From assembly GCF_019264445.1 (NCBI RefSeq), contig NZ_JAHVAB010000067.1, forward strand, positions 1 to 64,000: a DNA stretch of 64,000 nt, in the 5' to 3' direction. Below the pieces are notes generated by a model, which did no database searches, was not told where the DNA came from, and saw nothing but the letters and a program-made list of their open reading frames with translations. Source of the stretch: Hydrogenophaga sp. GTDB taxonomy: Bacteria; Pseudomonadota; Gammaproteobacteria; Burkholderiales; Burkholderiaceae_C. A program made the position numbers and the translations under genes. Positions 51,729 through 64,000 of the stretch are shown one piece after another; the first letter of the stretch is position 1, and each line of letters opens with the position of its first letter.

Positions 51729-51841
51729 ATCGGATGCCGCCAAAAGATCAGAGCAGACTGACTGCCGTTAGCGGTTCCATGCTGGACCCGAGATAGAGAT
51801 GGTGCTGCTGGCGGGGATTGACCCCAACTCTCCTACTCACT

Positions 51842-52250
51842 ATGAGCCACCGGCTAAGCCCCTCGCATTTGCACCACGAGGTTGCTGTAGAGAGGATTTT
51901 ATCGCTGCACGCTCGGGCGCCAGGTCGCACGCGTCCCGGGAGCCGACGTAGCCTCGGCGATGAGATCCTGAGTGCGCAGATGCGCCAAAGCTTCGTTCGC
52001 AGCGACCGTACCTACGGCGCACGCCGCGTGTGGCACGACGTGCTGGGGCAAGGCCAGACCTGTGGTTTGCATCGCGTCGAGCGGCTCATGCGAGAACAGG
52101 CGCTGCGCGCCGGACCCCGCCGGCGATGGCGTCCCAAGGACCGTAGCGTGCGCAGTGCTGTGACCGACAACGTGCTGGACCGCCAGTTCCAGGCCGACGG
52201 CCCGAACCCGAAGTGGGTGGCCGACTTCACCTACAGCTGGACGGGTCAAA
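51842..52250 (+). pseudogene. IS3-family transposase orfB fragment
   Basis: The remnant reads RRSLGDEILSAQMRQSFVRSDRTYGARRVWHDVL and DRQFQADGPNPKWVADFTYSWT, the N-terminal half of IS3 (IS407-like) OrfB. It breaks off at about 52250, where the catalytic DDE region should follow, so it is non-functional. No orfA partner, inverted repeats or target duplication could be seen. Confidence 0.75.
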
Positions 52251-52619
52251 CTGTTCCCCAACCTCTACTTCTGACTGGCTCAAGAAATCGAGGGGACTTC
52301 AAGCGAGCTAAAGCATCTCAATATGCTAAAGGATGCTGTGCTTAACGAGTACGAAGAAGTGGCTACAGGAGAGATCAGCTCGGCCTAAGGCCAAAGCCCC
52401 CTCAGATTTCTTAAAGGACATCGCGAGGCGCATTCGAGTCCAGGGCGCGGGGTAGGTGCCAAGGTCCGGCGCGGGTGGTGCCTGAGGGCGCCCTAGGTTG
52501 GCTCGAGGGGACGCCGCCGGCGCTCGGCCATGCCACCCCAATGGCACGTGTCCGCGTTGCTCCCGTGGCCAGCCATTGATTGGCGAATCGGCGCAGTCGG
52601 CACTGGTGGAGCGCTACGG
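52251..52619. other. no clear gene; short orphan reading-frame tails
   Basis: This 369-base stretch after the transposase break contains no gene with a start. On the plus strand a tail at 52275-52388 would encode LAQEIEGTSSELKHLNMLK and more helical residues, ending in TAA. A second at 52486-52623 would give a cysteine pair (GTCPRC) before a stop. Both look like ends of genes whose beginnings are missing, consistent with an eroded island segment. They could not be identified. Confidence 0.4.
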
Positions 52620-54622: not shown

Positions 54623-54838
54623 TCAATTTGCTGAGGGGGTAGGCGAGCGATAAACCTTCGCTGGCCCTGGGCCCTTATAGACCACCTCCCCGTTTGCAAC
54701 CGCAACCACGATCACGATCTTCAGGCTGTTCAATTCGATGACGTGGTAGTCAGCTGGCTCCCTTGGAAGAGATACCTCGCGGAAGCTGTGCAAGCCGTGA
54801 GCCGTTGGATGCCACAGCAACGTGGGGTGCTCGGCCAT
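54623..54838 (-). CDS. small protein B, tandem paralogue of protein A
   Basis: This 71-residue protein starts at an ATG sharing one base with the stop of the preceding gene (TGATG). It reads HPTLLWHPTAHGLHSFREVS and ends in GEVVYKGPGPAKVYRSPTP. The same framework (PTLLxHP, G-E-x-V-Y-x-G-P-G-P) recurs in the neighbouring 98-residue protein. No known domain is recognisable; the short beta-rich form with an alternating pattern suggests an SH3-like or small barrel fold. Confidence 0.6.
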   Translation of the reverse strand: MAEHPTLLWHPTAHGLHSFREVSLPREPADYHVIELNSLKIVIVVAVANGEVVYKGPGPAKVYRSPTPSAN

Positions 54839-55134
54839 CAGAATGGAACCTCGGATACTAAAACTTCGACCGGGCCTGGACCTTGGTAAACGGCTTCGCC
54901 GGTTGTCACGACCCGTACGATCCACCAATTACCGTGTTGCTCAACTTGATACTCAGCTGCTGGCAGTTTGAGCACCGTCTCTACCGGGAATGGAATCCCA
55001 TCCGGCACGGGGTGCCGGAGCAATGTGGGATTCCCGGGCGGTAAGTTCACGGAGGACATCATACGGCGGCTCAACCACTCCGCCATCTTAGAAGTTGATT
55101 GACGCAAGGTCAGATCTGGGAAGTTCACTTTCAT
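54838..55134 (-). CDS. small protein A, tandem paralogue of protein B
   Basis: This 98-residue protein starts at 55134, overlapping the stop of the RepB-like gene by four bases (ATGA), and its stop overlaps the next start by one. Residues 36-98 parallel the 71-residue neighbour: NPTLLRHPVPDGIPFP, VETVLKLPAAEYQV, IVRVVTTGEAVYQGPGPVEV. The first 35 residues are basic and unique. Two adjacent diverged copies suggest an old duplication. No function is known. Confidence 0.65.
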   Translation of the reverse strand: MKVNFPDLTLRQSTSKMAEWLSRRMMSSVNLPPGNPTLLRHPVPDGIPFPVETVLKLPAAEYQVEQHGNWWIVRVVTTGEAVYQGPGPVEVLVSEVPF

Positions 55135-55400
55135 TGGTCAAGAGCAGCAACTTGAGCCAAGGCGTTGAACTCCTGCAAGAAGTCCGGGTGACGCTTCTGC
55201 AAAAACCCTGCGATCGCCTGGTTCTCGAGAAGCTTCTTGATGTAGCCCCTGACGAGCGAGAGGCTCAGCACGTCATCTCCGTAATTTTGCTCCACTATGC
55301 GATAGCGCTCATGTAGGTTGGCCGTCTCGCGTTCAAGCTTAGCGATCTGCTCTTGTGTCGCCGCTTGCGCTCGACCAGTTCTCCTAGGGTTGACGAGCAT
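55131..55400 (-). CDS. RepB-type plasmid-partition C-terminal domain protein (truncated?)
   Basis: The 89-residue protein has the C-terminal domain pattern of RepB/ParB plasmid partitioning proteins: QEQIAKLERETANLHERYRIVEQNYGDDVLSLSLVRGYIKKLL...FLQKRHPDFLQEF. A full-length homologue has about 200 more N-terminal residues with the ParB nuclease-like and DNA-binding parts. These would lie beyond the island border, where a different gene remnant starts, so this is probably a 3' fragment that may still be translated. Its ATG is in the disrupted tphB-like sequence. Confidence 0.6.
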   Translation of the reverse strand: MLVNPRRTGRAQAATQEQIAKLERETANLHERYRIVEQNYGDDVLSLSLVRGYIKKLLENQAIAGFLQKRHPDFLQEFNALAQVAALDQ

Positions 55401-55798
55401 CTCCGAAGAAGTGGAGGCTATCCGCTGAATGTGATGCCTGCCTTCGCGATCGCTGTCTCATGGTGCGGGCAGGCAATGACAGCGTCGCAAGTGCCCGCCT
55501 ATGCCGCCTGAATGGCCGCGGTGGCACATGCCACTGCTGAAGCGCCAGCCGCTGCGTCAATCCGACCCGGAATGGCCGCAGCCGGATCAAGGGCGCCTGC
55601 CTCGTAGCAGCGAACACCCTCTAGCACCCAGCTCAGGTTCAGCTGCTCGGCGCAGCGGCGCAGCACCGAATCCGGGCCGAACAGTACAAAGCGGTCATGC
55701 TCGGACGGGGGCATTGCAGCAATCGCCTTGAGCGCGATCTCAGGTCCGATGCCATGCGGGTCGCCAATCGAAATGGCAAGCCGCGCACTGCTGCTCAT
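55400..55798 (-). pseudogene. tphB/pdxA-family dehydrogenase pseudogene
   Basis: The 5' part reads LAISIGDPHGIGPEIALKA, the PdxA/TphB family N-terminus. A TAG at 55499-55501 interrupts it after ATAAIQAA. In the same frame the sequence continues CDAVIACPHHETAIAKAGITFSG, then a second TAG (55418-55420) and PPLLRR, where similarity ends near the island border. TphB-type members oxidise the cis-diol from terephthalate dioxygenase, which fits the operon. It overlaps the TRAP gene by four bases, as expected for the operon's last gene. Two nonsense changes plus truncation make it non-functional. Confidence 0.8.
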
Positions 55799-56847
55799 GC
55801 GATCTTGGGCCTGTGTTTAGCAATGAGCGCCTTTGCACCCGCCAGGAGCTTCTCGCCGTCCTGTCCCCGCTTGTTCATCTCCTGGACCCATTCGCTGGCG
55901 ATGGCTCCAGTGAGTTGTACAAACTCGTTAGTTTGAGCCTCGTTGAAAACGTGCACCTTGTTGCCTCGATCGGTGGCCATCTTGCGGCTGATGGGATCGT
56001 GGTCCTGCTGCACCTTGCCGAACCAGGCCGAGGTCTCCATGCCCGAGTTGTCATCGATCACCTTCCTGATGTCGGGTGGCAGCGAGGCGTACTTGCTTTT
56101 GTTCATCACCATCACGAAGGCGGTGTTGTAGAGCGCTGGCTTGCCAGGCGCGAATTCGCTGTGGTGCTGCACGAGCTCGTGCACCTTCACCGAGGGAATC
56201 ACCTCCCAAGGCAAGGCTGCACCCTCGATCACGCCCTTGGACAGTGCATCTGGAATCTGTGGCAGCGGCATGCCCACGGCGGAAGCCCCGGCAGCGTTGA
56301 GCAGCTTTGTGGCTTGCCTAGTCGGACCTCGCACCTTCATGCCGCGCAGGTCGGCAGCGCTGATGATGGGTTTTGTCTTTGAGTGCAGTACGCCCGGGCC
56401 ATGGGTGTGGAAGGCCAGCGGTTGCACATCCTTGAACTCGTCTGCCGCATGGGTCTGCAGGTACTCCCAGGCCGCGCGGGAGGCGCCAATGGCGTCCACC
56501 GTCATGAACGGTAGTTCGAACACCTCGGTACGCGGGAAGCGGCCGGGCGTGTTGCCGGCCAACGTCCAGACGATGTCGACCACTCCGTCGCGCGCTTGGT
56601 CGTACAGCTGCCCAGGCGAGCCGCCCAGCTGCATGGCCGGGTAACCCTCGAACTTGATGCGACCGCCCGAGTCTTTCTCGACCTTGGTCATCCAGGCCTT
56701 GTGTGCGTTGAGATAGACATTGGAAGTCGGGGCCATGAAGGTATGGAACTTCAGGGTGACCACTTGCTGGGCGAAGGCCCCCAGGGAGGGTGCTCCAAGG
56801 GAAACGGCTGCCGCCGCCGATTTGATGAGTGTTCTGCGTTGCATCAT
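55795..56847 (-). CDS. TRAP transporter substrate-binding protein (DctP family)
   Basis: This 350-residue exported binding protein has a possible Tat signal (QRRTLIKSAAAAVSLG) and then LKFHTFMAPTSNVYLNAHKAWMTKVEKDSGGRIKFEGYPAMQLGG, the DctP-family start. TRAP receptors bind acids such as aromatic carboxylates. The DctQ/DctM membrane subunits are not within the window, so it may pair with distant ones. It lies in the operon between ALDH and the pseudogene, and probably delivers the pathway substrate. Confidence 0.88.
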   Translation of the reverse strand: MMQRRTLIKSAAAAVSLGAPSLGAFAQQVVTLKFHTFMAPTSNVYLNAHKAWMTKVEKDSGGRIKFEGYPAMQLGGSPGQLYDQARDGVVDIVWTLAGNTPGRFPRTEVFELPFMTVDAIGASRAAWEYLQTHAADEFKDVQPLAFHTHGPGVLHSKTKPIISAADLRGMKVRGPTRQATKLLNAAGASAVGMPLPQIPDALSKGVIEGAALPWEVIPSVKVHELVQHHSEFAPGKPALYNTAFVMVMNKSKYASLPPDIRKVIDDNSGMETSAWFGKVQQDHDPISRKMATDRGNKVHVFNEAQTNEFVQLTGAIASEWVQEMNKRGQDGEKLLAGAKALIAKHRPKIA

Positions 56848-56921
56848 GGGTTTGTCTCCTAGATTGATGGGAAAGGCGTTCCGGCCCCCTGGTCGGTGCT
56901 AGCTTCTTGTAATGACGGTAA

Positions 56922-58370
56922 TCAAGCAGGGCTCGCCTGCGAAACGAACTTGGTGACGAGGTAGCTGTCGAAGGTTTCACTGCCGCCTTCGCTGCCCATC
57001 CCGCTGTCCTTCACGCCACCGAATGGTGTTTCTGCCAACGTGATGCCGAAATGGTTCACGTTGACCATGCCCACCTCAAGGCCGTTGACCATGCGCTCCG
57101 AGGTTTTGATGGAGCCGGTGAACACGAAACTGGTGAGGCCAAAGGGCAGGGCGTTGGCGCGCTTCAACACCTCGTCGGTGTCTTGGAAGCGCGTGATCGG
57201 TGCTACCGGGCCGAAGGGTTCTTCGAGCATCAGGCGCGCGTTGTCGGGAATGTCGGTGAGGATGGTGGGCGGGTAGAAGTAGCCCGGGCCGGCGAGCCGC
57301 GTGCCGCCGCTGGCCAGCTTCGCGCCACGCTCCAGCGCATCGGCCACGAAGCCTTCCATGGCATCGACCCGGCGCAGGTGCGCCAGGGGGCCCATCTGCG
57401 TGTCCTTGTCCATGCCGTCGCCCACCTTCAAGCCACCGTATGCTTTCGTGAAGGTGTCGAGGAAGCGGTCGTACACCTTCTCCTGCACGAAGAAGCGGCT
57501 GGGCGCAATGCACAGCTGACCCGCGTTGCGCGCCTTGAAACGCGCCAGCAGATGGGCCGCGTCGTCCACGTCGGCGTCGTCGAACACCACCACCGGCGAG
57601 TGCCCGCCCAGTTCCATGCTGATGCGCTTCATGTGCAGGCCGGCGAGCGACGCCAGCTGCTTGCCCACCGCCACCGAGCCGGTGAACGACACCTTGCGCG
57701 AGATCGGCGAGCGGATCAGGTGGTCCGACACCTCGGCCGGCACGCCCCAAACCACGTTGAGCACGCCCGGGGGCAGACCCGCGTCGTGGAACAAGCGCGC
57801 GAGCGCGATCACCGCGCCCGGCGAATCTTCCGGTCCCTTCAATACCAGCGTGCAGCCCGCGCCAATGGCCGCCACCATCTTGCGGATGGCCTGGTTGAAC
57901 GGAAAGTTCCAGGGCGTGAAGGCCACGCATACTCCGACGGGCTCGCGCAGCACCAGCTGGCGCACATGCGGCAGGCGCGCGGGAATCACGCGGCCATAGA
58001 TACGGCGGCATTCCTCAGCGTGCCACTCCGCGTGTTCGGCGCAGGTGGTTACTTCCAGCAGCGCCTCGCTCAGCGGCTTGCCCTGGTCGAGCGTGATCTG
58101 ACGTGCGATCTGGGGTGCGCGTTCGCGCGTGAGCTCGGCCACGCGGCGCAGCACCTTCGAGCGTTCCATCGGCGAGCTCTTGCGCCAGCTCTCGAAGGCA
58201 CGTTGCGCTGCGTTCAGCGCGCGGTCTAGGTCGTCGCGGCGTGCATGCGGCAACGAGCCGATCACCTCGCTGTTGGCGGGGTTGACGATGTCCTGGTGGG
58301 GGCGGTCACCGCCCTCGATGAATTCACCATCGATGTAAAGGTACGGCTTGCTGTAGGCGCTGTCGGTCAT
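56922..58370 (-). CDS. NAD(P)-dependent aldehyde dehydrogenase
   Basis: The 482-residue ALDH starts at 58370. The catalytic cysteine is in NAGQLCIAPSRFFV, the glutamate in SMELGGHSP and the NAD-binding motif in SFTGSVAVGKQL. It is closest in look to the succinate-semialdehyde/benzaldehyde-type group. In this operon the likely role is oxidation of an aromatic aldehyde (for example 4-formylbenzoate) to the acid. The SDR gene lies 14 bases upstream on the same strand. Confidence 0.88.
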   Translation of the reverse strand: MTDSAYSKPYLYIDGEFIEGGDRPHQDIVNPANSEVIGSLPHARRDDLDRALNAAQRAFESWRKSSPMERSKVLRRVAELTRERAPQIARQITLDQGKPLSEALLEVTTCAEHAEWHAEECRRIYGRVIPARLPHVRQLVLREPVGVCVAFTPWNFPFNQAIRKMVAAIGAGCTLVLKGPEDSPGAVIALARLFHDAGLPPGVLNVVWGVPAEVSDHLIRSPISRKVSFTGSVAVGKQLASLAGLHMKRISMELGGHSPVVVFDDADVDDAAHLLARFKARNAGQLCIAPSRFFVQEKVYDRFLDTFTKAYGGLKVGDGMDKDTQMGPLAHLRRVDAMEGFVADALERGAKLASGGTRLAGPGYFYPPTILTDIPDNARLMLEEPFGPVAPITRFQDTDEVLKRANALPFGLTSFVFTGSIKTSERMVNGLEVGMVNVNHFGITLAETPFGGVKDSGMGSEGGSETFDSYLVTKFVSQASPA

Positions 58371-58384
58371 CGCGGGCCTGCCGA

Positions 58385-59140
58385 TCAGATGAACACCGAG
58401 CCACCATCGACGGCGATGGTCTGGCCGGTGATGAACCCCGCGCCGTCGCTCACGAGGAATACCAGCGCGCCGACCAGATCCTCGGGCACCTGGTCGCGCT
58501 GCAGCGAGCGGCTGGTCTTGCGCACCACGTCGCCCATCTTGCTGTGCAGGTCGTTGTCGAGCACACCGTCGCTCAGCGTGAAGCCCGGGGCAATGGCGTT
58601 CACGGTGATGTCGTCCTTGCCGAGTTCGCGGGCCAGCGAACGCGTGAACGCGATCACCGCGCCCTTGCTGGCCACGTAGTGCAGCATGTTGGGCGTGCCC
58701 TTGATCGGCGTGGTGGACGCGATGTTCACGATGCGGCCAAAGCCGTTCTTGCGCATTTCGGGCACGACCGCTTTGGCGCACACGAAAGGCCCGAGGGTGT
58801 TGACTTCCATCACGCGCATCCACTCGGCGTCGCTGATCTGGTCGAACGGTTTGAGCGCGAGCGTGGTGAACAGGCCGGCGTTGTTCACCAGCACGTCGAG
58901 CCGGCCGAACGCCTTCACGGCCTGTTCGACCATGCCCGCCACGTCGGCGGGCTTGACGACATCGGTCTGCGTGCCGATGGCCTTCAGGCCCTGGGCCTGG
59001 AGGCGCTGGGCCGCTTCGGCGGCGCCGCGCAGGTCGGCAATGACGACCTGGTGGCCCGCGCGCGCGAGCGCTTCGGAGAATGCGAAACCGATGCCGCTGG
59101 CGCCGCCAGTGACGGCGATGACCCGGGATGCTGCTGTCAT
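58385..59140 (-). CDS. short-chain dehydrogenase/reductase (SDR)
   Basis: This 251-residue classical SDR has the NAD-binding TGGASGIG motif and the S-Y-K triad (IASTTPIKGTPNMLHYVASKGAV). It probably oxidises an alcohol to an aldehyde, or a cis-diol to a catechol, using NAD. The position before ALDH fits an alcohol to aldehyde step. If it oxidises the cis-diol instead, it could replace the broken TphB-like enzyme. The start at 59140 gives the family N-terminus. Confidence 0.88.
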   Translation of the reverse strand: MTAASRVIAVTGGASGIGFAFSEALARAGHQVVIADLRGAAEAAQRLQAQGLKAIGTQTDVVKPADVAGMVEQAVKAFGRLDVLVNNAGLFTTLALKPFDQISDAEWMRVMEVNTLGPFVCAKAVVPEMRKNGFGRIVNIASTTPIKGTPNMLHYVASKGAVIAFTRSLARELGKDDITVNAIAPGFTLSDGVLDNDLHSKMGDVVRKTSRSLQRDQVPEDLVGALVFLVSDGAGFITGQTIAVDGGSVFI

Positions 59141-59193
59141 GTGTTGTCTCTTTCTGTGGGAAGGGGTGGATGTCGAATGGGGCTGTGGGAATC

Positions 59194-60369
59194 TCAGGCC
59201 GGTGCGAGCGCGGGCGCGAGGGCTTTTCGCGCGCGCATGTGCGCGGCGGGGTCGTTGAGGGATTCGACGGCGCTCAGCTGGTCGCCGCGGTAACGCAGCA
59301 CCGAGAAGCGGCCGCTGGCCGGATCGCCCTCGATGTCGCTGCGGTCGCTTGGTTCGGCCAGGCCGGCCATCTGCAGCCGGCAAGGGCCTTGCTCGCTCCA
59401 GAACCAGGGCACCTTGGCGTACGGCACGGGTTGGCCGCACAGGCGCGCGGCGATGCAGCGCGCCTGATCCACCGCGTTCTGCACCGACTCGATGCGCACA
59501 CGGGCACCGCCGCCGAAGGCGAACGGAAAACTCGCGCCATCGCCGAGCGCGGAAATGGCTGGGTCGCTGGTGAGCAGCAGCTCGTCCACCTCGATGCCGT
59601 TGCCGACCCGCAGGCCGGCGTCGCGCGCCAGTTGATCGTTGGGGGTCACGCCGACCGCGACCACCACCAGGTCGGCCGCGACGGGGCTGCCCTCCCGCAG
59701 GCGCAGGCCGGTGGCGTGGCCGTGCGCGCCCTCGATGGCAGCGAGCTGCGCCGACAGATGAAACCGCGTGCCCTGCGCTTCATGGAACGCCTGCAGGTGC
59801 CGCGCCATGGGCTCGGAGAGCGCACGCGCCAGGGGCCGCGCGGCGGTGTCGATGACGTGCATCGCCAGGCCCATGCCGCGCACCACGGCCGCGAGTTCGA
59901 GGCCGATGAAGCCGGCGCCGACCACGGCCACCGCGCTCGCCTGCGCCAGCCGCGCGCGGATGCGCTGCGCATCGTCGAGTCCGCGCAGCACGAAGACGCC
60001 TTGCAGGTCGGCACCGGGCACGGCCAGCGTGCGCGCGGCCGCGCCGGTGGCGAGCACCAGGTGGTCGTAGGGCAGCGCCGCGCCGCCGGAGAGCGCCACC
60101 TGGCGCGCCATGCGGTCGATGCTTAGAACCCGCGTGCCGCCGCGCACGCGCACGTCGATGCGCTCGTAGAACGCGGGTGGGCGCAGCAGCAGGCCGGCGT
60201 CGTCCACCTTGGCCTGCAGGAAACCTTTGGACAGCGGTGGGCGCTGGTAAGGCAGGCCGGGCTCGTCGCCCACCAGCGTGATGGGTGCCGCAAAGCCCGC
60301 CTCGCGCAACGAAGCCGCGAGCTGAAAGCCCGCCTGGCCGGTGCCGACGACGACGACGCCGTGCGCCAT
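59194..60369 (-). CDS. FAD-dependent ferredoxin reductase (P450 partner)
   Basis: The 391-residue protein has two dinucleotide folds (VVVGTGQAGFQLAAS and AVVGAGFIGLELAAV), as in putidaredoxin reductase and adrenodoxin-type reductases. It passes electrons from NADH to the [2Fe-2S] ferredoxin encoded next to it. The ATG at 60369 shares one base with the ferredoxin stop (TGATG). It is a dedicated P450 reductase rather than the Rieske reductase, which is encoded further upstream in the operon. Confidence 0.9.
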   Translation of the reverse strand: MAHGVVVVGTGQAGFQLAASLREAGFAAPITLVGDEPGLPYQRPPLSKGFLQAKVDDAGLLLRPPAFYERIDVRVRGGTRVLSIDRMARQVALSGGAALPYDHLVLATGAAARTLAVPGADLQGVFVLRGLDDAQRIRARLAQASAVAVVGAGFIGLELAAVVRGMGLAMHVIDTAARPLARALSEPMARHLQAFHEAQGTRFHLSAQLAAIEGAHGHATGLRLREGSPVAADLVVVAVGVTPNDQLARDAGLRVGNGIEVDELLLTSDPAISALGDGASFPFAFGGGARVRIESVQNAVDQARCIAARLCGQPVPYAKVPWFWSEQGPCRLQMAGLAEPSDRSDIEGDPASGRFSVLRYRGDQLSAVESLNDPAAHMRARKALAPALAPA

Positions 60370-60692
60370 CAGACCTGGCGCTCCGGGATGTGCACGATCA
60401 GCTCGTCCACGCCGGCGGCGAGCACCAGCTGGCAGCTGAGGCGGCTGTGTTCCTGGCGCTCGCTCGCGGCGCTGGCCAGCATTTCGTTCTCGACGTCGCT
60501 GGTCGGCGGCAGGAACCCGACCGAGGCTGGGTCCACGTACACGTGGCAGGTGGCGCACATGGCCGAGCCACCGCACTCGGCGACGATGCCGGCAATGCCG
60601 TGGGTGACGGCGGTCGTCATGACCGTGGCGCCGGCGCTGGCGGGCACGGCTTCGCGCGAGCCGTCGGGTTGCACGTAAACAATGTGGGGCAT
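60369..60692 (-). CDS. [2Fe-2S] ferredoxin (P450 partner)
   Basis: The 107-residue ferredoxin is of the adrenodoxin/putidaredoxin kind, with cluster ligands in AECGGSAMCATCHVY and LSCQL (C-x5-C-x2-C...C). It starts at 60692 with AGAGG seven bases upstream. It delivers electrons from the neighbouring reductase to the P450. Compare HaPux, which serves CYP199A4. The pair of electron carriers next to a P450 is diagnostic of a class I P450 system. Confidence 0.9.
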   Translation of the reverse strand: MPHIVYVQPDGSREAVPASAGATVMTTAVTHGIAGIVAECGGSAMCATCHVYVDPASVGFLPPTSDVENEMLASAASERQEHSRLSCQLVLAAGVDELIVHIPERQV

Positions 60693-60723
60693 CGTGGGCC
60701 TCTTTCCTGGTGTCTGTGGGGTG

Positions 60724-61944
60724 TCAGTCAACGGCGGCCAGCAGCGGCTCGACCGTCACCGGCATGTGCTTGAGCCCGCGCACGGTGTTGTTGAAGTGCT
60801 GGACCGGCTCGCCGTCGAGGCGGAACGAGGCCACGCGGCGCGCGAGTGCGGTGAGCACGATCTCGCCTTCGAGGCGCGCCATCATCTGGCCGGCGCAGCC
60901 GTGGATGCCCGTGCCGAAGGCCATGTGGCCGGTGGCGCGGCGTGTGATGTCGAAGCGGTCGGCATCGGGCCAGCGGCGCGGGTCGCGGTTGGCCGAGGCA
61001 ATGAACACCACGATCTTCTGGCCGGCTTTCACGGTGATGCCGCCGAGTTCCACGTCCTGCGTGCTGGTGCGGTAGAACGAATGGAAGGTGCTGTCGAAGC
61101 GCAGCACCTCTTCGAGCGCCTGGCGCGCCAGCGAAGGGTCTTCGCGCAGCAGCGCCCATTGCTCGGGGTGGCGCGCGAAGCTGGTGATGGCGTTGCAGAG
61201 CGTGAACACGGTGGTGTCCAGCCCGGCGGAGAGCAGGGTGCGCACCAGCATGCCGGCCTCGTCGTGCCCGATCTCGCCCGCGTCGGCGGCGGCGAAGAGC
61301 TGCGCACCCAGGCCATCCTTCGTGAGCGCGTCGCGCTGGCACACCTTCGCGATCCAGTTCACGGCCTCGCCCGAGCTGTCCATGCGCGCCTGGAAACGCT
61401 CGTTGATCGGGCCGAAACCGTTGAACACCATGTCGCCATACGGCAGCAGGTGTTCGCGTCCGTCGGCGGGCAGGCCCACCGCATCGCCGAAGGCCTTGAT
61501 GGGGAAGGCCTCGCAGAGGTCTTTGGCGGCGTCGAACGAGCCGCGCTCCACCAGGTCGTCGACCATGCGCGCAGCCACGTCTTCAAAAGTGGTGCGAAGG
61601 CGGCCGATGGACGCCGGCGAGAGCACGCGCGCCACCACCTTGCGCGTGCGGCTGTGGTGGGGTGGGTCGGCTTCCAGAATGATGCTGGGCTTGCGCCACG
61701 GCGTCTCGGTGTGGAAGTTGGCCAGGCCCACGCCCGCGCTGGAGCAGAACACCTCGGGCTGCGACAGGATGCGCTGCACCTCATCGTGGCGCGCGACCGC
61801 GAGCACACCGTAGCGCTCCAGCCAGGCCCAGGGGCCAAGGTCGCGCAGCTGCGCGTAGTGCGGGTAGGGGTTGGCCAGCACCTCGGTGGTGTAGGGATCG
61901 AAGTCGCTGGTGGGGACGTCGGCGTAGGGGTTGGGGTGTGTCAT
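60724..61944 (-). CDS. cytochrome P450, CYP199-like
   Basis: The 406-residue class-I P450 has the I-helix SAGLDTT (oxygen activation), the ExxR in EEVLRF and the heme-thiolate C350 in FGTGIHGCAGQ. The substrate-recognition blocks FCSSAGVGLANFHTETPWRKPSIILEADPP and MVFNGFGPINERF closely resemble CYP199A2/A4 as I recall them. These enzymes oxidise the para substituent of benzoic acids (4-methyl, 4-methoxy, 4-ethyl). The start at 61944 gives the family N-terminus. It is preceded by the Rieske reductase gene, gap 25 bases. Confidence 0.85.
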   Translation of the reverse strand: MTHPNPYADVPTSDFDPYTTEVLANPYPHYAQLRDLGPWAWLERYGVLAVARHDEVQRILSQPEVFCSSAGVGLANFHTETPWRKPSIILEADPPHHSRTRKVVARVLSPASIGRLRTTFEDVAARMVDDLVERGSFDAAKDLCEAFPIKAFGDAVGLPADGREHLLPYGDMVFNGFGPINERFQARMDSSGEAVNWIAKVCQRDALTKDGLGAQLFAAADAGEIGHDEAGMLVRTLLSAGLDTTVFTLCNAITSFARHPEQWALLREDPSLARQALEEVLRFDSTFHSFYRTSTQDVELGGITVKAGQKIVVFIASANRDPRRWPDADRFDITRRATGHMAFGTGIHGCAGQMMARLEGEIVLTALARRVASFRLDGEPVQHFNNTVRGLKHMPVTVEPLLAAVD

Positions 61945-61969
61945 GGGTGGGCTCTTTTTCGGGTGCGCT

Positions 61970-63004
61970 TCAGTCGGCCAGCGCGGGTGTGCGGGGTTGG
62001 GCCACCACGAACGCGTCGCAGAAGAACGCATCGGGCGGCAGGCCCCGGGTGGCAACGAAATCGCTGCGCGCCGCGCTCACCATGGCGGGCGCGCCGCAGG
62101 CATACACCTGGTGGCCGGCGAGGCTGTCGTGGTCTTGCAGCACGGCCTGGTGCACGAAGCCGATGCGGCCGGTCCAGCCGGCATCCGGCTCGGAGAGCAC
62201 GGGCACGAAGCGCAGACCGGCCTGCTGGCCCCAGCCGCGCGCGAGGTCGAGCAGGTACAGGTCTTTCTCGGTGCGCGCGCCCCAGTACAGCGCGATCTCG
62301 CGCCGCTGTCCCTGGCGCAGGCCGTCTTCCACCATGGACTTGATCGGTGCGAAACCGGTGCCACTGGCCAGCATGACGATGGGCGCGTCGCTGTCCTCGC
62401 GCAGGAAGAAGTCGCCGTGCGGCAACTCCACTGGCAGCGTGTCGCCGACTTTGAGTGCGTGGGTGAGTGTTTGCGAGAACGCGCCGCTCTCGAGCAGGCG
62501 GATGTGCAGTTCGGCGCCGTCGTTCTGGTGTGGCGGATTGGCCATGGAGAAGCTGCGGCGCTGGCCGTCGGGCAGCAGCACCTGCAGGTACTGGCCGGCC
62601 TTGAACTTCACCTTCTCGCCCGCAGGAAAACGCAGCTTGAGGCGCGCCACGTCGGGGGCCGGAAAGTCGATGCGCATGACGCGGGCGTCGAGCTGGCGGC
62701 GCGCGTTCGGGTCGGTCTTCTCGATCTGGCGCGGTTCGATCTCGATGTCGGTGAGCGGCCGGGCCTGGCAGAACAGCACCTGCCCGTGCGCGATCTCGTC
62801 GGCGGAGAGCGTGTGGTCGCCCGCGGCGCCGGGGTTCACCCGGCCCGAGACCACGCGGCCCTTGCAGCTCGCGCAGATGCCCGAGTTGCACGAGAACGGC
62901 ATTTCGTAGCCCGCCTGGCGCACCGCGTCGAGCACGGTCTGGCCCTCGGTGCAAGGCACCGTGGTGCCGAGGCCGGCGATGTGGATGAGGTGCGTGGCGC
63001 TCAC
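61970..63004 (-). CDS. Rieske dioxygenase reductase (TphA1-like)
   Basis: The 344-residue reductase has an N-terminal plant-type ferredoxin domain (MPFSCNSGICASCKGRVVSG...VLFCQARP, four cysteines) followed by FAD- and NAD-binding halves (SFSMANPPHQNDG, MLASGTGFAPIKSMVED, YACGAPAMV). The domain order (2Fe-2S, FAD, NAD) matches TphA1 of terephthalate dioxygenase. It feeds electrons from NADH to the oxygenase encoded upstream. Confidence 0.88.
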   Translation of the reverse strand: MSATHLIHIAGLGTTVPCTEGQTVLDAVRQAGYEMPFSCNSGICASCKGRVVSGRVNPGAAGDHTLSADEIAHGQVLFCQARPLTDIEIEPRQIEKTDPNARRQLDARVMRIDFPAPDVARLKLRFPAGEKVKFKAGQYLQVLLPDGQRRSFSMANPPHQNDGAELHIRLLESGAFSQTLTHALKVGDTLPVELPHGDFFLREDSDAPIVMLASGTGFAPIKSMVEDGLRQGQRREIALYWGARTEKDLYLLDLARGWGQQAGLRFVPVLSEPDAGWTGRIGFVHQAVLQDHDSLAGHQVYACGAPAMVSAARSDFVATRGLPPDAFFCDAFVVAQPRTPALAD

Positions 63005-63011
63005 GGCGTGC

Positions 63012-63488
63012 TCACAGTGGAATGGCCAGCAGGGTGTCGGTGTTGTGGCTGTCGCAGACCACGACGCGGCTGGCCAGGCGCAGTGTGTCGGTGCCGTCGA
63101 TCACCAGTTCGTCGAGGTAGCGCCCGGTGGCGAAGATCGTGGTCTCGCCGCCGCGCATGACGCGCACCACCACGAAGGGCGTTTCGCTCTGCCGGCCGCG
63201 CGGCGTGTCGCCGAGCAGCACCGGCAGGCCCACCAGGTGGCGGTAGCGCTGCTTCTCGTACACGTTGGCCGTGCGCAGCGAGAGCACGCGGTCGCCGAGC
63301 ATGGCGCGGGAGTCGGCATAGATCAGGCTGGCTTCCATGCCCTGGGCATGGTTGTCTGCGGTGGTCACGCGGTAGAGACAGCGTTCGGTGAAGAGTCGTA
63401 CCCAGGCCTCGAGATCGTCGTTGTCGATGCAGCGCGCGCACTGGGCGTTGAGCGCCATCGCGCTCGTGGCGTCGATGACCGCGCTCAT
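63012..63488 (-). CDS. aromatic-ring-hydroxylating dioxygenase beta subunit (TphA3-like)
   Basis: This 158-residue protein of the NTF2-like SnoaL/Rieske-beta fold contains [35 protein letters not shown] and the conserved [10 protein letters not shown] block. It is structural and supports the alpha hexamer. Its start overlaps the alpha-subunit stop by four bases (ATGA), so the oxygenase subunits are made in step. Length matches TphA3. Confidence 0.88.
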
Positions 63489-64000
63489 GAACCGGCCTCC
63501 ATGTGCACGCGATACGCCTTCCAGAAGCCGCGAACCGAGGCCTCCGTGGTGCGGCTGCCCTGTGACCGGACGCTGTCGCCCCCCATCTCGACGATCGCTG
63601 CTTTGCCGCCGGCGCTGGCAATGCCACGCTGAACGAAGCTACCCACCGCGCCGTCTTCCATGGAAACGAACCCGGCGGGTCCGATCAGGTTGGATTGTTT
63701 GTGGCGCATGGTGCGCAGCTCGGGCGTGTCGTCCTGGAACCCGAGGTAGACCCAGTTCAGCGCCGTGGATTCGATGCCCTCGGGCAACACCTGGCGCACG
63801 GCCAGCGTGTTCTGAATCTGCGCCAGCACGAAGCCCGGAAACACCGAGAGGATCTGCAGCGTCACGCCGTCGCCGAATTCGTCCATGCCTTTCAGCAGCG
63901 TGGCGTCTTCGAGCTTGAAGTCGTCCTTTTCCGAGCGCAGTTCCTCGGCCTGGTAGTCCTCGCCCTGGTCGGCCGCCGGGTCGATGGCCGAGAAGCTGAT
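63485..64000 (-). CDS. Rieske aromatic dioxygenase alpha subunit (TphA2-like), C-terminal part
   Basis: This is the last 171 residues of a gene that runs past the window edge (minus strand). It covers part of the catalytic helix-grip domain: [53 protein letters not shown] and [15 protein letters not shown]. These blocks match terephthalate dioxygenase TphA2 as I recall it. The Rieske cluster and iron ligands lie outside the window. A dioxygenase that makes a cis-1,2-dihydrodiol from terephthalate or a close para-carboxylate is the best reading. Confidence 0.85.

Follow-up and report, generated by a model that had tools for sequence, protein, structure and literature searches.

The stretch analysed here (the window, 64,000 nucleotides) comprises bases 1-64000 of contig C34 (NZ_JAHVAB010000067.1; 105,840 bases) in the 4.43 Mb, 91-contig genome assembly of Hydrogenophaga sp. 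(GCF_019264445.1). Towards its end the minus strand carries a run of ten genes encoding, in order, the alpha and beta subunits and the reductase of a TphA2A3A1-like Rieske oxygenase, a CYP199-like cytochrome P450, a ferredoxin, a ferredoxin reductase, a short-chain dehydrogenase/reductase (SDR), an aldehyde dehydrogenase (ALDH), a DctP-type receptor of the tripartite ATP-independent periplasmic (TRAP) transporter class and a tphB-like remnant (Table 1). An earlier interpretation made from the letters of the window (the sequence-only reading) had listed these genes and described the P450 as fused in one operon with a terephthalate-dioxygenase-like enzyme. All ten genes were found in the proposed order on the same strand, spaced from alpha to the tphB remnant by -4, 7, 25, 31, -1, 53, 14, 74 and -4 bases; they form one operon-like run, but with no fusion at the protein level.

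Table 1. Features of the P450-dioxygenase locus. Positions are those of the window unless prefixed with L004.
Feature	Position	Strand	Length and matches
tphA2-like Rieske oxygenase alpha	63485-64750, crosses window end (3' part in window, 63485..64000); L004:8485-9750	-	421 aa, whole on same contig
tphA3-like oxygenase beta	63012..63488	-	158 aa; PF00866 55 bits (cut-off 27)
tphA1-like [2Fe-2S]/FAD oxygenase reductase	61970..63004	-	344 aa, GTG start; Fer2 + FAD_binding_6 + NAD_binding_1
CYP199-family P450, predicted p-toluate methyl hydroxylase	60724..61944	-	406 aa; PDB CYP199A2 446 bits, CYP199A4 437
[2Fe-2S] ferredoxin, putidaredoxin type, predicted P450 electron donor	60369..60692	-	107 aa; PDB 4ltu 109 bits, putidaredoxin 91
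FAD ferredoxin reductase	59194..60369	-	391 aa; Pyr_redox_2 + Reductase_C; one-base overlap with ferredoxin gene
SDR, predicted 4-hydroxymethylbenzoate dehydrogenase	58385..59140	-	251 aa; PF13561/PF00106
ALDH, predicted 4-formylbenzoate dehydrogenase	56922..58370	-	482 aa; PF00171 518 bits; PDB 5vbf 639 bits
DctP-type TRAP receptor, predicted aromatic acid uptake	55795..56847	-	350 aa; PF03480; PDB 5im2 470 bits, 7nr2 310, 7nsw 249
Truncated tphB (PdxA-like cis-diol dehydrogenase)	55388..55798 (start part 55499-55798)	-	residues 1-133 of 316, 3' end absent
IclR regulator	L004:9890-10675	divergent from operon	start 139 bases from alpha

A terephthalate-type dioxygenase beside a CYP199-family P450

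Comamonas TphA2 shares 63% identity with the alpha subunit, whose best PDB matches are the TphA2 structures 7vju and 7q04 (612 and 609 bits), compared with 265 bits for the next, NagG-type match (7c8z). Excerpts of the report on the terephthalate 1,2-dioxygenase (TPADO) structure name H210, H215 and D356 as iron ligands, R309 as the carboxylate residue and I290 as a ring residue, and give N224, S243 and R390 as unique to TPADO in an alignment of five characterised homologs (PMC9060491). All eight positions are identical in the alpha encoded here, as they are in all 24 fetched alpha sequences that span the eight (L039 and L075 being one gene), and the partly covered sequences L061, L065 and L073 match wherever they are covered. 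The resemblance to TphA2A3A1 noted in the sequence-only reading is borne out, since the alpha clusters among TphA2-type alphas and has the residues diagnostic for para-dicarboxylates, supporting its assignment as a putative oxygenase of the terephthalate 1,2-dioxygenase type. The beta subunit scored 128 bits against NF041685, under that model's cut-off of 230. An assignment of the alpha as anthranilate dioxygenase was rejected: AndAc, the top NCBIfam model, reached only 431 bits against a cut-off of 750, and the TphA2 residues are kept.

Cytochromes P450 sharing more than 40% identity are placed in one family by the nomenclature. The protein encoded in the window passes this threshold for CYP199, with 51.0% identity to CYP199A2 (394 aligned positions) and 49.9% to CYP199A4 (391), and in a PDB search the next group after CYP199 scored 211 bits as against 446. 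In a phylogenetic tree of sequences with at least 42% identity and more than 330 aligned residues, it falls in a 40-row clade of its own (support 100/98), with CYP199A2 and CYP199A4 outside under midpoint rooting. The proposal of a CYP199-like P450 stands as regards identity and the conservation of benzoate-binding residues, but the protein belongs to a separate clade beside CYP199A2/A4 and does not group within the CYP199A subfamily. The CYP199A4 residues of the carboxylate and ring pocket, R92, S95, L98, F182, F185, R243, S247, A248, D251, T252 and F298, are kept, in what we take to be the CYP199A4 numbering (indices in the tree chains are one higher), and the changes relative to CYP199A4 are S244T, V295F, Q296H and T297S. 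Excerpts of a study of PbdA place its carboxylate site at R84, S87 and S237, and Val288, equivalent by offset to V295, in its hydrophobic substrate pocket (PMC11530827). The corresponding triad here is R, S and T, the hydroxyl being retained at the third place. Because the PbdA counterpart belongs to the substrate pocket, the Phe at 295 plausibly leaves less space there.

The four changes occur together in the window and in 36 fetched sequences (L036-L039, L044-L071, L073, L075, L086 and L087, among which L038/L059 and L039/L075 are same-gene pairs), and in none of the 15 CYP199-like sequences outside the clade (L040-L043, L076-L085 and L088), where L077 has F295 only and L088 has H296 and S297. 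Clade members L072, L074 and L093 have F295 and H296 with S244 unchanged. The P450s of the nearest Hydrogenophaga-named loci (L044, L045, L046 and L054) are 94-97% identical to the one described here. Two Rhizobiales loci, L072 and L074, have P450s on a side branch of the clade, with an SDR (51-52%) and without a ferredoxin match; TphA2-type alphas (58% and 56%) are located away from the P450 in these genomes.

Recurrence of the P450 set with TphA2-type dioxygenases

The comparative analysis included 71 loci identified in a genome-contig scan with six short query peptides, a procedure that leans the set towards close relatives. Clade P450s account for 35 of these (L044-L075, L086, L087 and L093), 11 CYP199-like loci (L076-L085 and L088; 47.7-55.2% identity) were used as controls, and L089-L092 (36-47%) and L094-L114 stand outside both counts. 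With partners accepted at identities of at least 50% for alpha and SDR, 45% for ferredoxin and 60% for ALDH, an alpha gene is present within the fetched flank at 28/35 clade loci versus 0/11 controls, an SDR at 33/35 versus 0/11, a ferredoxin at 31/35 versus 2/11 and an ALDH at 23/35 versus 0/11, and the DctP receptor (10/35 clade loci) is a less constant partner. Eight of the 28 flank alphas run off the end of the fetched stretch, and six are under half length (L059, L065, L066, L067, L069 and L073). The partner survey, which extended through L104, detected no alpha at L089-L104 and only one 26% match at L088.

When whole genomes are considered, a TphA2-type alpha is present in 32 of the 35 clade genomes and in none of the 11 control genomes, two of which have only 37-45% relatives; a search of the 14 clade genomes with no alpha or a cut one identified a TphA2-type alpha (at least 56%) in 10. 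Among 399 host-family genomes, with at most four candidates scored per genome, a TphA2-type alpha (E <= 1e-130) occurs in 25 and a clade P450 (at least 64% identity) in four, the genome under study included, and all four carry the alpha on the same contig (1.2e-5); with that genome removed the counts are 3/3 versus 24/398 (about 2e-4, calculated by hand). Family genomes in which the best P450 is 44-52% identical have a TphA2-type alpha in one case of ten (G115). The partnership between the P450 set and a TphA2-type dioxygenase is conserved across many genera, and the gene run in the window is thus no chance arrangement.

The phylogenetic tree of alphas with more than 300 aligned residues (L039, L088, L121-L125 and L134, six of which are genes of kept rows, were dropped, as was L164, identical to L142; L119/L160 and L075/L156 each represent a single gene present twice) reveals that the P450-linked alphas are not monophyletic. 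Linked and unlinked labels change seven times, at least three of the changes being forced by well-supported branches, where "unlinked" denotes that no clade P450 is listed for the genome, with region annotation drawn on for L115 and L116, and not a neighbourhood-by-neighbourhood reading. Ramlibacter- and Ottowia-type linked alphas lie in a supported group (100/97) with Comamonas TphA2, and alphaproteobacterial linked alphas group with the alpha of Rhodococcus RHA1 (100/99). Gene order varies as well: alpha-beta-reductase-P450-ferredoxin-ferredoxin reductase-SDR-ALDH in Hydrogenophaga, alpha-beta-PdxA/TphB-reductase-P450-ferredoxin-SDR-ALDH-ferredoxin reductase in Celeribacter and kin, P450-ferredoxin-SDR-ALDH-alpha-beta-reductase in Neopusillimonas, and, in Afipia and Bradyrhizobium, alpha and P450 set in divergent orientation. 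At the Noviherbaspirillum malthae locus (L050), a complete tph-type operon continues into the P450 set: following a divergent IclR gene, a single run encodes a TctC-type receptor, alpha, beta, a PdxA/TphB-like protein, reductase, P450, ferredoxin, ferredoxin reductase, SDR and ALDH.

The scattered placement of the linked alphas in the tree, together with the differing gene orders, means that the pairing of P450 and alpha has recurred. What argues most strongly for a P450 set that feeds the dioxygenase is that its membership outlasts rearrangement. The SDR and ALDH adjoin the P450 even at loci where alpha is about 9.5 kb off, which ties them to the P450 product. None of the 1311 matching plasmid records in PLSDB contains a P450 of at least 60% identity, and the cassette was not seen on plasmids.

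A proposed p-toluate route and its alternatives

We consider it probable, from the gene content, that the operon serves to take up a para-methylbenzoate, p-toluate (4-methylbenzoate) being the most likely one, and to oxidise it through an upper pathway into terephthalate and then protocatechuate. The sequence-only reading had likewise put a P450 at the start of a path from p-toluate through terephthalate to a cis-diol, and that proposal gains support from the gene families, from the diagnostic residues and because the P450-ferredoxin-SDR-ALDH set recurs with TphA2-type dioxygenases; p-toluate as the actual substrate, and the order of the steps, we infer. The TRAP receptor would help p-toluate uptake, and the P450, with electrons from the ferredoxin and ferredoxin reductase of the operon, would convert p-toluate to 4-hydroxymethylbenzoate, from which the SDR would form 4-formylbenzoate and the ALDH terephthalate. 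The TphA2A3A1-type dioxygenase may then yield the cis-diol, and TphB, supplied in this strain from contig C70 or C84, would produce protocatechuate. The SDR and ALDH would return two molecules of reduced nicotinamide adenine dinucleotide (NADH), one of which would pay for the P450 step, as in TsaMBCD. Such methyl-to-acid chemistry appears within reach of the CYP199 fold, because an engineered CYP199A4 can oxidise 4-tert-butylbenzoate several times over, as far as a dicarboxylic acid, according to excerpts of a 2026 perspective (PMC12933326). Ring cleavage of protocatechuate in the host is plausible, since its genome encodes LigB-type extradiol dioxygenases at six places and intradiol dioxygenases at two.

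The closest functional parallel is TsaMBCD of Comamonas testosteroni, acting on 4-methylbenzenesulfonate and 4-methylbenzoate, for which excerpts of PMC10579966 describe oxidation of 4-methylbenzoate to terephthalate by a Rieske monooxygenase, an SDR (TsaC) and an ALDH (TsaD) with recycling of NADH. Both systems would follow methyl hydroxylation with SDR and ALDH steps to a para-dicarboxylate, and here too the SDR and ALDH genes lie beside that of the methyl hydroxylase. Unlike TsaMBCD, the first oxygenase is a P450 with ferredoxin and reductase in place of the Rieske TsaM/TsaB, the SDR is no close relative of TsaC (as judged by PDB comparison only), and the TPADO genes share the operon; TsaM is not encoded in the operon, where the P450 takes its place (no search for it was made elsewhere in the genome). 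By analogy, the P450 set would work like TsaMBCD without being a member of that system. The tpa operon of Rhodococcus RHA1 (pRHL2, L115) resembles the locus in that an IclR-type regulator accompanies genes for alpha, beta, a PdxA/TphB-like protein and a reductase, whereas the locus differs from tph and tpa operons in the addition of the P450-ferredoxin-ferredoxin reductase-SDR-ALDH genes, in its TRAP DctP receptor and in a tphB that is 3'-terminal and truncated. Compared with CYP199A2/A4 and PbdA (CYP199A), the P450 has the same benzoate-carboxylate residues but differs in its separate clade, its S244T/V295F/Q296H/T297S changes and its linkage to terephthalate genes.

Aligned with its intact relative at L044, the tphB remnant extends over residues 1-133 of 316 (92.5% identity), contains two TAG stops, and loses homology thereafter. 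An identity as PdxA was considered and rejected, the intact L044 relative being 67% identical to the copy in a Variovorax tph-type cluster, 47% to the RHA1 copy and 34% to the genome's own copy on contig C36. With the operon's gene truncated, TphB must come from one of two other places in the genome. A second, diverged copy of the operon (C70:7737-18700, L036) has an open tphB frame and is about 90% identical to the window in its P450, alpha, SDR, ALDH and DctP genes and 79-82% in the reductase, beta and ferredoxin reductase genes. A third tph-type cluster (C84:8014-11709, L160) encodes an alpha (66%), its own PdxA/TphB-like protein and a reductase-like open reading frame (ORF); with at most four P450 candidates per genome in the family-genome listing, no clade P450 was recorded on C84.

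Several observations weigh against a p-toluate pathway of this kind. The nearest PDB entries to the SDR are 8cxa and the (S)-1-phenylethanol dehydrogenase 2ew8, with a top match of 204 bits, versus 133 bits for TsaC (8sy8). The operon lacks a full-length tphB of its own, and the separate tph cluster on C84 raises the prospect that the P450-linked TPADOs serve a different terephthalate. A TphA2-type alpha is absent from 3 of the 35 clade genomes (L064, L087 and L093), all of them metagenome-assembled genomes, and L093 is without any partner on its 13-kb contig; L073 was counted as positive only through a 26% piece (58% match) at a contig edge, the genome search giving none at the E-value applied. 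An ALDH of at least 60% identity is missing from the flank at 12 of the 35 clade loci and DctP at 25. In G115, a CYP199-like P450 outside the clade coexists with a TphA2-type alpha on another contig. At the Piscinibacter defluvii locus L075 (the same gene as L039) the P450 match ends at residue 347 and ferredoxin, SDR and ALDH are absent; alpha, beta and reductase do follow the P450, and either the cassette has decayed or the assembly is at fault. Because the loci share descent, the Fisher and hypergeometric values also overstate independence.

That the P450 is an ordinary CYP199A-type O-demethylase of 4-methoxybenzoate or veratrate merely lying beside a tph operon, with the SDR and ALDH handling formaldehyde or other aldehydes, we regard as distinctly improbable. 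PbdA, CYP199A2, A4, A25 and A35 are described as methoxybenzoate O-demethylases in excerpts of PMC11530827, and share their carboxylate residues with the P450 discussed here, but its clade is separate from CYP199A2/A4, the four-residue signature is confined to that clade in the rows compared, a TphA2-type alpha tracks the clade and not the controls, and 4-hydroxybenzoate, the product of demethylation, requires no TPADO. The same logic could instead apply to another acid, such as a ring-substituted or longer para-alkylbenzoate (2,4-dimethylbenzoate or 4-ethylbenzoate), leading to a substituted terephthalate or other product. The acceptance of p-ethylbenzoate by CYP199 enzymes, as given in excerpts of PMC11530827, the pocket wall altered by V295F and the possible specialisation of P450-linked TPADOs in a genome with its third tph cluster all favour this alternative; we nevertheless rate it as rather unlikely, since every TPADO residue that contacts terephthalate is retained, an SDR/ALDH pair acting on longer para chains would not yield terephthalate, and a Val-to-Phe change should narrow the pocket and not widen it.

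SDRs act as cis-diol dehydrogenases in benzoate pathways, and the truncated tphB would fit an SDR that takes over this step and makes tphB dispensable here, the alcohol being oxidised by the P450 itself or by another enzyme. This appears highly improbable, given that the SDR adjoins the P450 at loci with a full-length PdxA/TphB-like gene (L044, L050, L054, L057 and C70) and also where alpha is distant.

On balance, and with somewhat less assurance than for the operon's general role, we favour the view that no P450-initiated p-toluate pathway was recognised before this one, in which the T244-F295-H296-S297 CYP199 clade would be a dedicated 4-methylbenzoate methyl hydroxylase that, with ferredoxin, SDR and ALDH, makes up a transferable NADH-recycling cassette joined repeatedly to terephthalate operons in beta- and alphaproteobacteria. 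No P450-started p-toluate operon appears among the matches listed in the open-licence PMC literature, a scope that mostly excludes subscription papers and makes the novelty provisional. If correct, the proposal would add a second natural role of CYP199-type P450s to that in O-demethylation, with a residue signature separating the two, and would define a P450-dependent route by which methylbenzoates enter the metabolism of terephthalate and protocatechuate. Terephthalate is the acid building block of poly(ethylene terephthalate) (PET) plastic and methylbenzoates are products of p-xylene and p-cymene breakdown; such a route could be useful for work on PET monomers and xylenes. Hydrogenophaga palleronii NBRC 102513 (L054), whose operon includes a full-length PdxA/TphB-like gene, is a named strain in which the hypothesis can be tested directly.

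Regulation and neighbouring genes

The divergent IclR regulator scored 278 bits against the PcaR/PcaU/PobR subfamily model, slightly below its cut-off of 285. Two near-palindromic TTCGNNTATCGAAC repeats, which presumably resemble PcaR-type boxes, are present between the IclR gene and alpha (contig 64751-64889; L004:9751-9889). A TTCGNNTATCGAAC match at 10 or more of 12 fixed positions lies just upstream of the IclR gene at 21/24 loci versus 33/960 random pieces from the same loci; the pattern was derived from the window, without whose locus the count is 20/23, and L038 and L059 are one locus. The regulator and a TTCGNNTATCGAAC-type site precede the P450 rather than alpha at several Ramlibacter-type loci, which suggests that a single regulatory signal probably governs both the P450 half and the dioxygenase half, the effector of the regulator being, like the substrate, a matter of inference.

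A predicted structure of the DctP receptor was unusable (mean predicted local distance difference test score 43, from an 8-row alignment). Directly downstream of the broken tphB are two adjacent short ORFs (54623-55134; 101 and 98 aa) without Pfam match, which by eye look like mutual paralogs, a GPGP stretch occurring in both. About 3 kb past the broken 3' end of the operon, an ORF at 51818-52345 contains an HTH_21 domain, which occurs in IS3-type transposases, and may be a relic of the event by which tphB was truncated. Beyond the window (L004:15454-18663), a second BenC-like reductase gene is found by a TctC-type receptor and another DctP receptor.

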